Of a stretch of DNA of 64,000 nucleotides, positions 56,081 to 63,601 are shown piece after piece. Both the position numbers and the translations under genes were made by a program. The stretch is from Methanocellales archaeon (lineage in GTDB: Archaea; Halobacteriota; UBA148; JAUWXC01). The first letter of the stretch is position 1. Every line of letters starts with the position of its first letter. The stretch covers positions 188,246 to 252,245 of the forward strand of contig JAUWQV010000001.1 in NCBI GenBank assembly GCA_030610945.1, written 5' to 3'. Under the pieces are notes generated by a model that was not told the origin of the DNA, made no database searches, and saw only the letters and a list, made by a program, of their open reading frames with translations.

Positions 56081-56554
56081 ATGAAGCATAGAGAGATTAT
56101 AGATAAAGTTTGTGAAGAATTCAAGTATAAATTTCCTAATTGTGAAATTGAAAAGGAAGTTCAATATAAGATAAATCTACCAAGGTCTGGATTAAATAAA
56201 CAATTCTTTCGTGTAGATATTGTTGTTACTGATAAACGCACAAACCAACAAATCGGCATAGAATGTAAAACCATCGAGGATAGCAAGGATTTTAGAAAAC
56301 TAATGGCTGGGATTGGACAAGCTTATGTTCTCCAAAAAGTTTTCGGTAAATCGTACTTAGCAATAGAAGTAGAATCAGACATGCTACCGAGTGAAAATAA
56401 TTTTGAGTTTTGCAAAAGATACACATTATTCGTAAATATACATCCAGAGTTGGGTATTGGTATTTTATTTGTAAAAAATAGTGTCTGTTTTATTGAAGAG
56501 GCCGAATACAGAGAGCCAGTTGCAAAAACACTATTCATTAGGCGTGGTACCTAG
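56081..56554 (+). CDS. PD-(D/E)XK nuclease-like orphan protein
   Basis: A 157-residue protein, visibly more AT-rich than its neighbours. FRVDIVVTD (Asp46) followed by IGIECKTIED (Glu61, Lys63) gives the D...ExK pattern of PD-(D/E)XK nucleases, and GIGQAYVLQKVFG supplies the following Gln/Tyr helix. It could be a stand-alone restriction-type or repair nuclease, or an inactive relative. No methyltransferase is adjacent; the nearest is 5 kb away. It starts six bases after thiDN and converges on the next gene. Confidence 0.7.
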   Translation: MKHREIIDKVCEEFKYKFPNCEIEKEVQYKINLPRSGLNKQFFRVDIVVTDKRTNQQIGIECKTIEDSKDFRKLMAGIGQAYVLQKVFGKSYLAIEVESDMLPSENNFEFCKRYTLFVNIHPELGIGILFVKNSVCFIEEAEYREPVAKTLFIRRGT

Positions 56555-57614: not shown

Positions 57615-58437
57615 TGAAGTAGATGAAGAGGGGCTGAGGGCAAACATAGAATTTGCCATTGAGAATGGCGTTTCTGGTATCGTGCCGGCTGGTTGCACAG
57701 GTGAGGCTGCCACGCTCTCGCTCGAGGAGCAGAAAAGAGTTATCGATATCGCGGTGGATGCGTCTTCTGTCCCGGTGATAGCGGGCACTGGATCAAATAA
57801 TACGAAAGAGGCCATAGTGCTCACTGAGTATGCCGCCGATGCTGGCGCAGATATTGCGATGCTGATCTCGCCATACTACAACAAGCCGACTGATGCTGGA
57901 CTGATTGCACACTATAAAGCCGTTGCCAGTTCGTGTGATATTCCGATACTGCTCTACAACGTTCCTTCAAGGACAGGAAGGAACATGGGCGCACATGTCG
58001 CGGCTGAGCTGGCAGACGTGGACAACATTGTGGGAATCAAGGAGGCCAGCGGGAATTTGAATCAGGTCTCCGAGATTGTACGTCTGACCAAGGATAAAAA
58101 CTTCGTCGTCGTTTCAGGTGACGACTCGCTGACGCTGCCAATTCTGGCTCTTGGGGGCAAGGGCGTCATTTCCGTTGCTGCCAACATCATCCCAAGACAG
58201 ATGAGCGACCTTGTAGGCGCGTTCTTAAAGGGTGACATAGAAAAGGCAAGGGAGATTCACCACACCGTGTATCCACTGTTGCGCGACCTGTTCGTGGAGA
58301 CGAATCCGATTCCCTTGAAGGCTGCGATGAAGTGGATGGGGCGGGCTGCAGGCGAGCCGAGATTGCCTCTGGTTCCATTGGGCCAAGAGAATGCACCCAG
58401 GTTACGACGCACCATGGAATCGATTGGGTTACTATGA
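57565..58437 (+). CDS. dapA: 4-hydroxy-tetrahydrodipicolinate synthase
   Basis: A 290-residue TIM-barrel lyase. Seen are MFQGVAPALVTPFTKDNEVD, GCTGEAATLSLEEQKRVI, ISPYYNKPTDAGLIAHYKAV, the Tyr of LLYNVPSRTG and the Schiff-base lysine in NIVGIKEASGNL. It condenses pyruvate with aspartate semialdehyde. The start is GTG after GGGGGTGA, inside the S17e gene. dapB follows with a four-base overlap. Confidence 0.95.
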   Translation: MFQGVAPALVTPFTKDNEVDEEGLRANIEFAIENGVSGIVPAGCTGEAATLSLEEQKRVIDIAVDASSVPVIAGTGSNNTKEAIVLTEYAADAGADIAMLISPYYNKPTDAGLIAHYKAVASSCDIPILLYNVPSRTGRNMGAHVAAELADVDNIVGIKEASGNLNQVSEIVRLTKDKNFVVVSGDDSLTLPILALGGKGVISVAANIIPRQMSDLVGAFLKGDIEKAREIHHTVYPLLRDLFVETNPIPLKAAMKWMGRAAGEPRLPLVPLGQENAPRLRRTMESIGLL

Positions 58438-59153
58438 TTAAAGTTGCTATATGCGGCGCTGCCGGGCGAATGGGTTCGTTGATAGCGCAGAACGTTTTGT
58501 CAGAGGATGATATGACACTTGTCGCCGCCTTTGATGTAAAGGATGTCGGCAAGAGCATAGGAGATGTACGTATCTCCGATGTCAAGCAAATTCACGATGT
58601 TCTTGCCGAAACCAAGCCCGACGTGCTGGTTGATTTCACCGTCGCATCCGGGGCGGTGGAGAACGCGAAGGCTGCCGCCGAGCGTGGTGTCAATATAGTC
58701 ATCGGCACGACCGGCTTTACGCCAGAGCAGTACGAGGAGATGCGCAGTGTGATAGACAAAAAGGTAACTGCAGTTATCTCTCCGAATTTTGCTGTCGGCG
58801 TAAACGTGTTCTGGAAACTCATAGGCGATGCAGCGAAGTATCTCGGCGATGTCGACGTTGAGATCGTCGAGGCACACCACAAGCACAAAAAGGATGCACC
58901 GAGTGGGACTGCAAAGAGGGCTGCTGAAATTGTGCGCACCTCTCTCGGCAAAGAGGTAAGCGTCCACTCGATCAGAAGTGGAGACATCGTAGGCGACCAT
59001 CTCGTCCTGTTTGCAGGAGACGGCGAGCGCATGGAGATAAAACATCAGGCGCACAGCAGACAGGCATTCGCTTCGGGCGTGATAAAGGCGATACGATGGA
59101 TTGCGAGCGCGGAAAAAGGCATATTTTCGATGAATGATGTGCTGGGATTGTGA
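58434..59153 (+). CDS. dapB: 4-hydroxy-tetrahydrodipicolinate reductase
   Basis: A protein of 239 residues. The NAD(P)-binding start is IKVAICGAAGRMGSLIA, then VIGTTGFTPEQYEEM, and the catalytic-site VEIVEAHHKHKKDAPSGTAK. It reduces the DapA product to tetrahydrodipicolinate, the substrate of DapL. The ATG at 58434 overlaps the dapA stop (ATGA). The upstream open frame inside dapA is not used. Confidence 0.95.
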   Translation: MIKVAICGAAGRMGSLIAQNVLSEDDMTLVAAFDVKDVGKSIGDVRISDVKQIHDVLAETKPDVLVDFTVASGAVENAKAAAERGVNIVIGTTGFTPEQYEEMRSVIDKKVTAVISPNFAVGVNVFWKLIGDAAKYLGDVDVEIVEAHHKHKKDAPSGTAKRAAEIVRTSLGKEVSVHSIRSGDIVGDHLVLFAGDGERMEIKHQAHSRQAFASGVIKAIRWIASAEKGIFSMNDVLGL

Positions 59154-59165
59154 GTTTTGAACGGT

Positions 59166-59564
59166 TTACCACTCATATCTGTACATTTGCACCTCGCCAG
59201 ACCTGAGCTTTTGTTTAAACCATTTTTTCAGCACTTTTTTCACACCAGCCCTGGTCAGCGGGATGAGCAGAAGGAAGCCCAGCAAATCCGTGATTATTCC
59301 GGGCGTGACGAGCAGAACTCCGCCCACCAGCACGAGTGCGCCATCGAACAATGGATCTGCAGGCATGATGCCGTTTGCAATATCAACCTGTATCTTTCTG
59401 AGAACGGACAAACCCTGGGATTTAGCCAGCATGGCGCCCACGACACCCGTAACAACGACGATGAAGATTGTGTTCCACGTCCCAATCATCTTGCCAAGTT
59501 CGATTAACAAAAACAGCTCGATGATGGGCGTCAATACGAAGATGATTATTAGTGTGGGTAGCAT
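59166..59564 (-). CDS. FxsA-family membrane protein
   Basis: A protein of about 132 residues starting MLPTLIIIFVLTPIIELFLL. It has two to three membrane helices with AKSQGLSVLRKIQVDIANGI and GGVLLVTPGIITDLLGFLLL, the typical FxsA pattern. The family's role is poorly known; E. coli FxsA affects phage F exclusion. The frame stays open upstream, but the ATG at 59564 gives the family start. It converges on dapB. Confidence 0.88.
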   Translation of the reverse strand: MLPTLIIIFVLTPIIELFLLIELGKMIGTWNTIFIVVVTGVVGAMLAKSQGLSVLRKIQVDIANGIMPADPLFDGALVLVGGVLLVTPGIITDLLGFLLLIPLTRAGVKKVLKKWFKQKLRSGEVQMYRYEW

Positions 59565-59652
59565 TTTGTGTTCCTGTCCTCTGCCGTACTTTGTTTCTAA
59601 CACGTAAACATTTTGTGTATAATTTTGATTTTATCACTTTAAAGCGATCTGC

Positions 59653-61119
59653 GTGGCGATTTTTAAGAAAAGAGCGCTCTTTCGGATCAAAATGCTTAAA
59701 TACGCCCGCAGAGGATCTGATCGGATTAAAGGGACGTTTAAACGGATTAATTCAGGAAGTATATCATACAAGAGAGTTGGCATGGAACTATTCAAAACTT
59801 TTTTGAAGGATCTGAAAGGATATGCTGAGGGCGAGATCACATTAGAAGATGTTCAGCAATCAATTTCGAGAATTAACAAATTTTTATATCAGAGTTATCC
59901 AGAGTTGGGGGCGACTACGGTCTTTGATGGAGAAGTGCTCCAGTATATTTCTGAGTTTCATAAATTCTGGGAAAATAATTATCAAAGAGTTTTAAACACA
60001 AGGATCAATAAAAAACAGTGTAAAATAGCTGCTGAATGCTTAAAAAGCGCTACCAAAAAGTACGACCCTGACATTTTCTTTTTAACTCATGATACTTTTG
60101 GAATAGATAAGAATGCGATCGCGCAAGTTCGCTTTTTTACTTCAAGTCAAGATTTTAGAGGGCCGTTAAAGAACCAATACCAAAAATACTTAGACGACCC
60201 TAGCAAATTTGATGCTGAATTCGTGCACGGTGATCCAATAGCTTTCTTAAAGTATATCGGTGTTACAGGTTTTTCCCAAACTGATAAGAGATTGGATTAT
60301 GCTAAGAATTCTGCGGAATTATTATTAAATAAGGAGGTTAATGCCCATGATCTTGCTGAGATTTGTAATAACGATGCATTGAAAATTAGAAATTTGCTTA
60401 TAAGCACACCAAACATAGGTTATGGCCGTAAGAAGGCCGATATGTTCATTCGAGATATGTTTGCTCTGGGGGTGTGGCCGCATTTATCAAATTTTGACAA
60501 GATCGATGTTGCAAGTGATGTAAACACAATGAAGGTCGCTTTAAGGATGCGAATAATTGAAACAGATGTCCCGTTGCTTTCTAGCTTCCTTGATATTTTT
60601 TGTTACCAATATGGAGAGGTAGATGAGAAAAGCGCCCTTGCGTGGAGATCTGTTTGGGAAGAGTGGAAGAAGATCGATCCTCAAAATGCTTTAAAATCTC
60701 CCTGTTTAATTGACTTTCTGATTTTTAGGATCGGACGCGAATGTTGTAAAGAAATTTTGAATCTTTATCAATGTGAATCGAATAACGACCATCTTTTCTA
60801 TTGGTTTTCAAGTAACCTAAAAAGTTGTTTAACTTGTAGAGAGCAGGATAAAAAGAGCAATGCCCATCCTACAAAAAAATTATTACCTTGTCAAGTTGAT
60901 AGTTCGGAAATGCCAAGGGGAGAAAGTGGATTAAAAATCAGTGATAAAAAAATATTGCATGTTTTTGATGGCGAGTGTATTTTTAAAAACGTGTGCAGAC
61001 CCGGCACGCCTGAATTCAAGAAAGTATCTCCTCCAAAATCTATATCTATAAAAGGAAGGACGGGGTGGTTAAGTGCAAGGACGACGATTGAAGAGGGGGG
61101 TGGTGGTTTGATGTCATAG
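59653..61119 (+). CDS. HhH-GPD glycosylase-like protein next to a DNA methyltransferase
   Basis: A protein of up to 488 residues, AT-rich. Residues 250-295 read TPNIGYGRKKADMFIRDMF then FDKIDVASDVNTMKV, a helix-hairpin-helix glycosylase core. Lys260 or Lys261 matches the lyase lysine and Asp289 the catalytic Asp of the HhH-GPD fold. The C-terminal third holds many cysteines (364, 365, 374, 392, 395, 413, 442, 448), possibly a metal or iron-sulfur site. The N-terminal half is helical and unrecognised. Starts at 59653 (GTG), 59692 and 59782 (ATG) are possible. The methyltransferase that follows suggests restriction-like or repair action. Confidence 0.72.
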   Translation: MAIFKKRALFRIKMLKYARRGSDRIKGTFKRINSGSISYKRVGMELFKTFLKDLKGYAEGEITLEDVQQSISRINKFLYQSYPELGATTVFDGEVLQYISEFHKFWENNYQRVLNTRINKKQCKIAAECLKSATKKYDPDIFFLTHDTFGIDKNAIAQVRFFTSSQDFRGPLKNQYQKYLDDPSKFDAEFVHGDPIAFLKYIGVTGFSQTDKRLDYAKNSAELLLNKEVNAHDLAEICNNDALKIRNLLISTPNIGYGRKKADMFIRDMFALGVWPHLSNFDKIDVASDVNTMKVALRMRIIETDVPLLSSFLDIFCYQYGEVDEKSALAWRSVWEEWKKIDPQNALKSPCLIDFLIFRIGRECCKEILNLYQCESNNDHLFYWFSSNLKSCLTCREQDKKSNAHPTKKLLPCQVDSSEMPRGESGLKISDKKILHVFDGECIFKNVCRPGTPEFKKVSPPKSISIKGRTGWLSARTTIEEGGGGLMS

Positions 61120-61133
61120 ACTAAGAGTAATGC

Positions 61134-61180
61134 TAAGGGGCGCGATCTCTCTGCCCTTAAACCTTAGAATTCTAATTCTT
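61134..61180 (+). terminator. Weak hairpin and T-rich stretch after the HhH gene
   Basis: TAAGGG (61134-61139) and CCCTTA (61154-61159) can pair around a 14-base loop; the following 20 bases are T-rich (TTCTAATTCTTTCTT). It could end the HhH transcript before the methyltransferase gene. Support is limited to this pattern. Confidence 0.3.
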
Positions 61181-61264
61181 TCTTGTCTGTTTGATTTTTA
61201 TGGATCATTTTTAATACTACTTCCGAGATCGATCCAATCCAAACATAAGTTGAGTTGTTTAGTC

Positions 61265-62188
61265 ATGCGAAAAAAATATACTCCAATGCGCGAAGTTACT
61301 CACGAGGATTACAAATCCTTCCTCACCAACCACGATCACGTCCAAATCGAGAACGTTAAGGTTGCCCTTCCGAAGTCTCACAAAATCAAAAAGCTCGCCC
61401 CCGATAACTTCAAGCGCCAGACCACGACCGCGTGGTCATTCCCTGACCGCGGGGACTGGGCCACGCACCAGGGCAATTACCGGGGCAACTGGTCGCCGTT
61501 TATACCGCGCAATCTCATACTCCGTTACACGGAGCCCGGGGATCTGGTACTGGACCAGATGGCAGGGGGCGGCACGACCCTCGTCGAGTGCAAGCTCCTC
61601 GGCAGGAATGTCATCGGAGTGGACATAAACCCGGACGCCGTTATGGTTGCAAGGAATCGCCTCGACTTCCCATATGCCCCCCTTGACGCAGAGTACATAA
61701 AGCCAAAAATTAAAACTTACGTTGGAGACGCCAGAAATCTGGACAAAATTAAAGAAGAATCTGTGGACCTCATTGCCACCCATCCGCCATATGCGGGCAT
61801 CATCCCGTACTCTAATGAAAGAGTGAAAGGCGACCTCTCCTCTGTTCATGATATAGGTGAATTCGTAGAAGAGATGCGCAAGGTCGCCGAGGAATCTATG
61901 CGAGTCCTAAAGCCCGGCAAGCACTGCGCTATTTTGATGGGGGACACCCGAAAACACGCCCACTTTGTACCTATTACCCCGAGAGTTCTGCAAGCGTTTC
62001 TCGATGTGGGCTTTATCCTCCGTGAGAACATCATCAAACTCCAATGGAAGACGAAATCTACCCGCGAATCGTGGTTCGGCAAGAACTACAACTTCCTCTT
62101 AATTGCGCACGAGCATCTGTATGTCTTCAGGAAGCTGGAGAAAGATGAGAGATTGACGAAGTTCAAAGAATCAGTTAAGTGGTGGTAA
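61265..62188 (+). CDS. Site-specific DNA methyltransferase (N4-cytosine/N6-adenine type)
   Basis: A protein of 307 residues. The SAM motif I is VLDQMAGGGTTLVECKLLG, followed by VIGVDINPDAVMVARNRL, and the catalytic motif IV is IATHPPYAGIIPYS. HPPY in place of the usual SPPY/DPPY fits amino-methyltransferases. The N-terminal segment WATHQGNYRGNWSPFIPRNL is a family block. Its G+C content is higher than that of the HhH gene before it, so the two may have separate origins. The open frame starts at 61130, but the ATG at 61265 gives the natural start. A tRNA/rRNA methyltransferase is less likely. Confidence 0.85.
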   Translation: MRKKYTPMREVTHEDYKSFLTNHDHVQIENVKVALPKSHKIKKLAPDNFKRQTTTAWSFPDRGDWATHQGNYRGNWSPFIPRNLILRYTEPGDLVLDQMAGGGTTLVECKLLGRNVIGVDINPDAVMVARNRLDFPYAPLDAEYIKPKIKTYVGDARNLDKIKEESVDLIATHPPYAGIIPYSNERVKGDLSSVHDIGEFVEEMRKVAEESMRVLKPGKHCAILMGDTRKHAHFVPITPRVLQAFLDVGFILRENIIKLQWKTKSTRESWFGKNYNFLLIAHEHLYVFRKLEKDERLTKFKESVKWW

Positions 62189-62203
62189 TTATGGTAATTA
62201 CTT

Positions 62204-62256
62204 AAGTAACAAATAAACAGGAATTGCGCGTCTATGTTACTTTAATAACGTTTTTT
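62204..62256 (+). terminator. Candidate terminator after the methyltransferase
   Basis: AAGTAAC (62204-62210) and GTTACTT (62236-62242) are perfect 7-base inverted arms with a 25-base loop, followed by a TTTTTT run near 62251. The TATA box of the ferredoxin gene lies about 100 bases further on. Confidence 0.35.
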
Positions 62257-62396
62257 ATGCTAGCCATACCTCCTATATATCTCCAAGAAGCCCGCTCAGG
62301 ATGGATGCATCACAAAATTCAAGGAAATCACGAAAATGGCAATAGGGAGACCAAAAATTTATATTGAAGTCGTTCATCCTCGTATGCGGGAGTATT

Positions 62397-62567
62397 ATGG
62401 CAGCAAAAGTTGATTCGGATAGTTGTGTGGGATGTGGAGCATGTGTGGATGAATGCCCTGTGAGTGCGATCTTGCTGAATGATGAGGTTGCCTCGGTTGA
62501 CGATTCGCTGTGCACTGAATGCGGTGCATGTGTTGATGTCTGTCCCACGGGCGCGATTATACTATGA
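62397..62567 (+). CDS. Ferredoxin with two [4Fe-4S] clusters
   Basis: A 56-residue ferredoxin with two cluster motifs: [12 protein letters not shown] and [12 protein letters not shown]. It carries low-potential electrons. A TATA-like TTTATATT at 62358-62365 would start transcription near 62388, nine bases before the ATG at 62397, so that start is preferred to a TTG at 62364. The stop overlaps the asd start (ATGA), an unusual but clear coupling. Confidence 0.93.
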
Positions 62568-63601
62568 GAATGAAAGTAGGCGTTTTGGGTGCAACCGGCG
62601 CAGTCGGACAAAGATTCATCCAGCTGTTAGCGGAGCATCCGTGGTTTGAGTTGGCAGCGCTGACTGCATCAGAGCGGAGCGCCGGCAAGAAATACGGCGA
62701 GATAGCGAAATGGCGGTTGGATGTGCCGCTGCCTGACAAGGTAAAAGACCTGAAGGTTTTGCCAACCTCGCCGGAAAAAGTAGATGCTGACATCGTGTTC
62801 TCCGCGCTGCCAGCCTCCATCGCGAAAGATGTTGAGCCCGAGTTTGCAAAAGCGGGATTTGTGGTGGCGAGCAATGCCAGTGCATACAGGATGGAAAGTG
62901 ACGTCCCCCTGATGATTCCCGAAGTCAATCCAGACCACCTGGGATTGGTAGAGGTACAAAAGAAAAATCGCCACTGGGACGGCTGCATCATCACCAACCC
63001 GAACTGCTCGGTCATCGCGATGGCGCTCTCATTGAAGCCGCTGATGAAGTTTGGCATAAAGGGCGTGCATGTGGCGACCATGCAGGCAGTATCGGGCGCA
63101 GGCTACGAGGGCGTTTCATCAATGGCAATCCTCGACAACGTGATACCATACATCGCAAAGGAAGAGGAGAAGATGGAGATAGAGGCCCAGAAGATACTGG
63201 GCGAGTTCGATGGCGCCAAGGTGAAAAATGCTGATTTCGCGGTAAGCGCAAGTTGCAACAGGGTTCCTGTTATAGATGGGCATACTGAGGCAATATGGGC
63301 ATCATTATGCGATAATCCAAGTTTGAGTGAAGTGCGCGATGCATTCGCCAAGTTCAAATGCGACGAGGTAAAGGGGCTACCAACCGCCCCAGAAAAGGCA
63401 ATCATCGTGCATGATGCAGAGGACAGGCCACAACCGAGGTTGGACAGAAATGCCGGGAAAGGCATGAGCGTTTCAGTCGGGAGAATCATGGAATACGCGG
63501 ACGGCGTCAAATACATTGCAATGGGGCATAACACGATTAGGGGCGCGGCAGGCGCATCTATACTGAATGCTGAATTATTCTGTAAAACGTACAAACGCTA
63601 A
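62564..63601 (+). CDS. asd: Aspartate-semialdehyde dehydrogenase
   Basis: A 345-residue protein of the archaeal/fungal type. It has [20 protein letters not shown], the catalytic cysteine in [15 protein letters not shown], and late [17 protein letters not shown]. It reduces aspartyl phosphate to aspartate semialdehyde for lysine, threonine and methionine. Its start overlaps the ferredoxin stop; an ATG two codons later (62570) is possible. Confidence 0.95.

Follow-up and report, generated by a model that had tools for sequence, protein, structure and literature searches.

A candidate base-excision restriction module combining a remote HhH-GPD relative with a DNA methyltransferase in a Methanocellales archaeon

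We describe two co-directed genes of a Methanocellales archaeon that may form a base-excision restriction system, in which a candidate HhH-GPD-type restriction enzyme is accompanied by a protective methyltransferase. The reading is tentative; it is suggested by the finding that the glycosylase-like protein adjoins a DNA methyltransferase of one family in every case where the neighborhood of a homologue can be read. The window, meaning the whole stretch of 64,000 nucleotides that was analyzed, belongs to a genome of 992 kb in 7 contigs (82% complete), from the phylum that also includes the Archaeoglobus and Methanophagales MAGs discussed below. The gene pair occupies the interval between fxsA/dapB and a ferredoxin gene/asd (Table 1).

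Table 1. Features of the gene pair and its flanks in the window
Feature	Position	Strand	Basis
HhH-GPD-like gene, 445 aa	59782..61119	+	ORF, homologue alignment, profile and structure comparison
Helix-hairpin-helix, residues ~206-225, around TPNIGYGRKKADMFIRD	60397..60456	+	Alignment, profile comparison
Lys217 codon; aligns with catalytic Lys of OGG/EndoIII-type enzymes	60430..60432	+	Invariant in 6/6
Asp246 codon; position of conserved catalytic Asp (GPD loop)	60517..60519	+	Invariant in 6/6
Cys-rich C-terminal part, Cys308 to Cys405, including zinc-ribbon-like C331...H337...C349xxC352	60703..60996	+	Alignment
Beta-class amino-methyltransferase (N6_N4_Mtase; motif IV HPPY), 307 aa, "short" type	61265..62188	+	
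Conserved upstream element, probable promoter, TATA-like GCTTAAATA	59622..59734	+	Common to relatives with a different downstream gene
Methyltransferase 3' end; gene-less scars in relatives	62023..62193	+	Comparison with G001, G003, G004
fxsA, left flank of exchange site	59166..59603	-	
dapB, beyond fxsA	58434-59153	+	
Small ferredoxin gene and asd, right flank of exchange site	62364..63601	+	

Gene boundaries and the HhH-GPD relationship

Both open reading frames reported in an earlier note on this DNA were confirmed (59653-61119 and the methyltransferase ending at 62188), as was the 145-base gap between the genes, since the natural methyltransferase start is the ATG at 61265. The proposed GTG start at 59653 is not supported, as most of the 43 additional N-terminal residues fall in a conserved DNA element. 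This element is 94% identical in a relative of the same order (G004) and 87% identical in one of the same genus (G001), where it lies upstream of unrelated genes and carries in-frame stops. Because residues 1-43 of the longer frame overlap it, the HhH gene likely starts at the ATG at 59782 and encodes 445 residues; Lys260/261 and Asp289 of the longer frame become Lys217/218 and Asp246. A scan with sigma-70 promoter and terminator models, an approach ill-suited to archaea, returned nothing above chance. Elsewhere in the window, positions 56081-56554 encode an orphan small protein that matches the HSDR_N_2 nuclease family below threshold (E 2e-4).

Profile comparison suggests that the 445-residue product is a remote HhH-GPD relative, an assignment that goes beyond chance. 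The alignment of six homologues scored 40.6 against 18 archaeal OGG/AlkA-like HhH proteins, compared with a maximum of 25.8 in 150 block-wise column shuffles, and the match spans residues ~147-222, covering the helices that lead into the HhH and the HhH itself. Against EndoIII-like proteins, the score was 25.3 (shuffles ≤23.5), with a local alignment that also takes in Asp246. The GYGxK motif containing Lys217 aligns to GVGxK of the archaeal OGG-like and EndoIII profiles, and in the comparison with EndoIII Asp246 pairs with the Asp of VDTHV, the Gly/Pro loop being replaced by IDVASDIN in a segment of low model confidence. AlphaFold modeled the full protein with a mean pLDDT of 54 (mostly 70-95 over residues 140-230) and residues 70-345 with a mean of 65. 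With regard to the six-helix barrel of the superfamily, Foldseek placed OGG1 and then AGOG as the best PDB matches of both models (probability ≤0.92, E ~0.1, TM-score ~0.35). The relationship is persuasive because profile and structure comparison indicate the same family; the E-values alone would be insufficient. The HhH-GPD core claimed from the sequence is thus supported as a remote relationship, with a structure prediction that agrees in its best matches at low-to-moderate confidence. The description of the N-terminal half as unrecognized fails for residues ~147-222, which match OGG-like helices.

Family models contributed little. PF00730 and the AGOG Pfam model matched none of the six members at E≤1; the window protein had no Pfam match at that threshold, belonged to no PHROG or PADLOC family, and drew only a chance-level model from NCBIfam. 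DUF2400/TIGR02757 gave sub-threshold matches to two homologues over the HhH region (best E 0.003 and 0.014); membership was rejected, as these fall below the curated cut-offs and hhalign to one DUF2400 member found nothing. A PDB sequence match to 4r0j (E 0.02-0.08) was confined to the N-terminal helices and provided no lead.

All six homologues retain Lys217 and Asp246, the catalytic pair of the superfamily, without variation, in agreement with the earlier claim that both are conserved. They correspond to Lys249/Asp268 of OGG1 and Lys140/Asp172 of AGOG, which are required in those enzymes (PMC9638937). Nine Cys are likewise invariant (274, 308, 322, 331, 349, 352, 370, 399, and 405). The Cys-rich C-terminal third already recognized is borne out by eight of these, from Cys308 onward, together with the invariant His337, and it is as conserved as the HhH in the six-homologue alignment. 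C331...H337...C349xxC352 forms a putative zinc ribbon; no solved structure matches residues ~299-445. A MutY-type FeS cluster was considered and rejected, as its C-x6-C-x2-C-x5-C spacing is absent among the invariant Cys.

Homologues and their methyltransferase partners

Five further homologues, 52-54% identical to the window protein, were found in MAGs of Archaeoglobus (G193, L009/L013), Jordarchaeia (L014), the bacterial group WOR-3 (L015), and Methanophagales (G244, L010/L016; G092, L011/L017), along with a short relic in G194. Detection relied on an alignment-based search, a single-sequence search being insufficient: no homologue came from scanning collections of genomes and viral contigs with one sequence, or from tblastn on phages and plasmids. 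Viral contigs, phages, and plasmids gave none with the alignment-based search either. Within the class of the Archaeoglobus MAG, one of 59 genomes carries the gene; in the Methanophagales class the count is 3 of 58, one copy broken and one a relic. In G092, both genes are broken, the methyltransferase having two stops and the HhH gene lacking its N-terminus, while G194 retains only the relic. The distribution is patchy and horizontal, across archaea and a bacterial MAG.

The window methyltransferase matches PF01555 (E 1e-25) and PADLOC MTase_II (E 2.7e-80), and its solved relatives include MboIIA, CcrM, RsrI, and N4-cytosine methyltransferases. The HhH homologue is operonic in the MAGs of Archaeoglobus, Jordarchaeia, WOR-3, and Methanophagales, and lies downstream of a "long" methyltransferase of the same family. 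In L009 and L014, the long methyltransferase (539 and 553 aa) ends 1 base short of the HhH gene, and in L015 the two overlap. The G244 contig with the HhH gene (L010) opens with HQYLLVYEVIE and a stop codon, the C-terminus typical of long methyltransferases, followed by a 215-aa ORF and then the HhH gene; another G244 contig ends within a long-type methyltransferase preceded by an EVE-domain gene. The window has the opposite gene order, HhH first, and a different "short" methyltransferase. Of the parts of a Type II restriction-modification system, the DNA methyltransferase is present; the cognate restriction enzyme may be the HhH protein, whose gene stands in a methyltransferase operon in five genomes, although its product matches no nuclease family.

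A survey of 295 genomes found the methyltransferase family in 19, comprising 4/4 genomes with the HhH gene and 15/291 without it (Fisher p ~1.3e-5, ignoring kinship). The methyltransferase tree unites the long members, most of them HhH-linked, in one clade and groups the short member of the window with members from G191 and G155. On this topology, the HhH gene has joined two branches of one methyltransferase family, in both gene orders. The pairing, earlier drawn from proximity, is therefore real, given the operonic arrangement in four other genomes and the exclusive co-occurrence; homologues consistently without a methyltransferase neighbor were looked for, and the opposite was found. Base composition adds to this history. 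The window HhH gene has a GC content of 37% (GC3 35%), its methyltransferase 51% (GC3 64%), and the neighboring genes 52-53%, whereas in L009, L014, and L015 both genes have similar compositions. In the window, the HhH gene was thus evidently acquired apart from its methyltransferase.

Several methyltransferase loci have features of their own. G248 encodes a methyltransferase close to the HhH-linked ones, with a different small protein where the HhH gene would lie and no HhH gene, an arrangement expected both if a restriction gene was swapped and if the HhH protein is an accessory that can be dispensed with. The long methyltransferases of L009 (96-1715) and L014 (4767-6428) bear an N-terminal segment of zinc-finger-like type (CPxC...H...H), and their C-terminal halves resemble a degenerate second methyltransferase copy. 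G191 holds three copies, one broken, of the same methyltransferase in 7 kb (L053, 4302-11355) near a DpnII/Dam-type system.

A restriction-modification exchange site

The fxsA|asd interval (59604-62272 in the window; L030, L031, and L032 in relatives) is a restriction-modification exchange site, filled in the window by the HhH gene and its methyltransferase. Between fxsA and asd, G003 of the same genus encodes a D12 methyltransferase and a PDDEXK_11 (PD-(D/E)XK) nuclease. G001 carries a DpnI-family enzyme and other genes between dapB and asd. In G004, a D12 methyltransferase and a 183-aa protein of no known family lie on the fxsA side, with asd elsewhere. Gene-less scars of the methyltransferase 3' end, covering the last ~57 codons, occur in all three relatives (L030, 1370-3588, minus strand; L031, 3751-3922, minus strand; L032, 3010-3075), with a partial copy in G003 and three copies in G004. 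Such a methyltransferase was therefore probably resident, the variable part of the site being whatever gene separates it from the upstream element.

Comparable islands occur in Methanophagales. Two contain a restriction-enzyme-like gene (PADLOC REase_II), beside the methyltransferase in G092 and beside the HhH relic in G194 (L063, 490-1251; L012, 7633-8445); both products have a helix-turn-helix-like start, and the PADLOC match is weak (L063, E 3e-6). In two Methanophagales islands, an EVE-domain gene precedes the methyltransferase; EVE domains form a family that reads modified bases. Small proteins beside methyltransferases in L062 (752-1438), L059 (3535-4122), L061 (1788-2096), and L030 (4992-5543) have the pattern PG(K/R)K...DFIV...(R/K)(T/I)P.H(V/I), and this shared motif makes an undescribed restriction-partner family possible. 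Proteins of 183-228 aa beside other methyltransferases (L030, L059, L062) had no Pfam or PADLOC match.

Base excision as restriction, and the alternatives

Patchiness, cross-phylum spread, decay, and a slot common with restriction genes favor restriction or defense over housekeeping repair, and the pairing with two separate methyltransferase clades in both orders supports a restriction reading. Since the glycosylase/lyase signature is conserved, the simplest mechanism is base excision inhibited by methylation. The two genes would then form a restriction-modification-like module, with a short sequence in the host DNA marked by the methyltransferase. Where that sequence is unmethylated, the HhH-GPD protein would excise a base from it through Lys217 and Asp246, probably as a bifunctional glycosylase/AP lyase, and the strand would be broken by the enzyme's own lyase or by host AP endonucleases. 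The Cys-rich C-terminal part may serve as a metal-binding DNA-recognition region. We infer the activity, the normal unmethylated base as substrate, and the protection by methylation.

Known systems offer partial parallels. The restriction glycosylases in the literature that we found are PabI/HALFPIPE enzymes (PMC10273834, PMC7806768, PMC4357717). CcoLI, put forward earlier as an HhH-type precedent, is in fact one of these (PMC7806768, PMC10273834). R.PabI and R.CcoLI follow the proposed logic, with methyl-inhibited base excision, a cognate methyltransferase, and patchy, mobile genes, but their HALFPIPE fold is unrelated in sequence and structure, and activity is demonstrated for the PabI family and only predicted for the window protein. 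No Pfam or PADLOC match relates the window protein to HALFPIPE/PabI enzymes, and its model is helical and OGG-like. The OGG1/AGOG 8-oxoguanine DNA glycosylases, the best profile and structural matches, have the HhH Lys and downstream Asp in the same positions. Identity in the structural matches is nevertheless ~13%, and the window protein differs in its lack of a Pfam assignment, its extra N-terminal helices, its Cys-rich C-terminal part, and its genomic partner, the methyltransferase. A restriction system with an HhH-GPD (OGG/AGOG-like) restricting enzyme would be the first of its kind, and restriction glycosylases would then have arisen a second time, independently of PabI/HALFPIPE, in a form shared by archaea and bacteria; we hold this wider claim with somewhat more reserve than the restriction reading itself.

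The strongest caution comes from the REase_II-like genes, since restriction may be due to a component other than the HhH protein, which leaves room for a repair or accessory role. The partial confidence of both structure models, the Foldseek E-values, and the separate acquisition of the two window genes also count against the restriction reading. Mig.MthI, encoded beside M.MthTI in an archaeon, illustrates such a role. This HhH enzyme is a G/T mismatch glycosylase whose substrate is deaminated 5-methylcytosine (PMC2714593). As an HhH glycosylase with a methyltransferase, it is the nearest functional precedent, and the earlier note named it among its precedents, yet it is a repair enzyme for a lesion that the amino-methyltransferase of the window would not generate, and the window protein departs from it in that its HhH contains a Lys and its Cys lack the MutY-type FeS spacing. 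The main rival to base-excision restriction, which we consider unlikely, is a repair accessory of a restriction-modification island. Like Vsr or Mig.MthI, it would remove a harmful base produced at the methylated site or by off-target methylation, and would not itself restrict. The Lys/Asp signature is that of bifunctional repair glycosylases, repair enzymes are the best structural matches, and two Methanophagales islands contain a restriction-enzyme-like gene. Against it, no endonuclease-like gene adjoins the two genes in the window or in the short contigs L009, L014, and L015, the partner amino-methyltransferase gives rise to no T:G-type lesion, and nine invariant Cys and an added C-terminal region set the protein apart from a plain repair glycosylase.

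The HhH-GPD scaffold might instead carry a non-catalytic or non-glycosylase DNA-binding partner, acting in specificity, in regulation, or through a C-terminal nuclease. Low model confidence in the GPD region and a C-terminal third conserved to the same degree as the HhH would suit this idea, but Lys217 and Asp246 do not vary among the six homologues, one of them from a bacterial MAG and the others from archaea, which renders it quite improbable.

A modification-dependent glycosylase that removes methylated or modified bases in foreign DNA, or erases its partner's mark, is just as doubtful or slightly more so. Brig1 and Brig3, UDG-superfamily glycosylases, set the precedent for defense against modified phage bases (PMC11078745, PMC13160076). 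They resemble the proposed window enzyme as DNA glycosylases in defense, but belong to another fold, address hypermodified phage bases, and have no methyltransferase partner reported in those papers. The EVE-domain genes of the two Methanophagales islands and the DpnI-family enzyme at the site in G001 are consistent with such an activity; given the tight operonic pairing, however, self-methylation would be lethal unless the targets differ. Finally, unrelated neighbors at an exchange hotspot, with the HhH protein an independent repair or RNA-directed enzyme, might account for the differing base compositions and the 145-base gap in the window, but the operonic pairing in four other genomes and the exclusive co-occurrence make this very improbable.

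The HhH-GPD-like family is rare, and among open-licence papers we found none describing it or any HhH-type restriction enzyme. If base-excision restriction by this family is true, then base excision as a form of immunity arose more than once, with foreign DNA attacked by base removal rather than by backbone cutting. A repair-type glycosylase serving as a restriction enzyme would explain how a damage-recognizing fold was re-aimed at normal bases.
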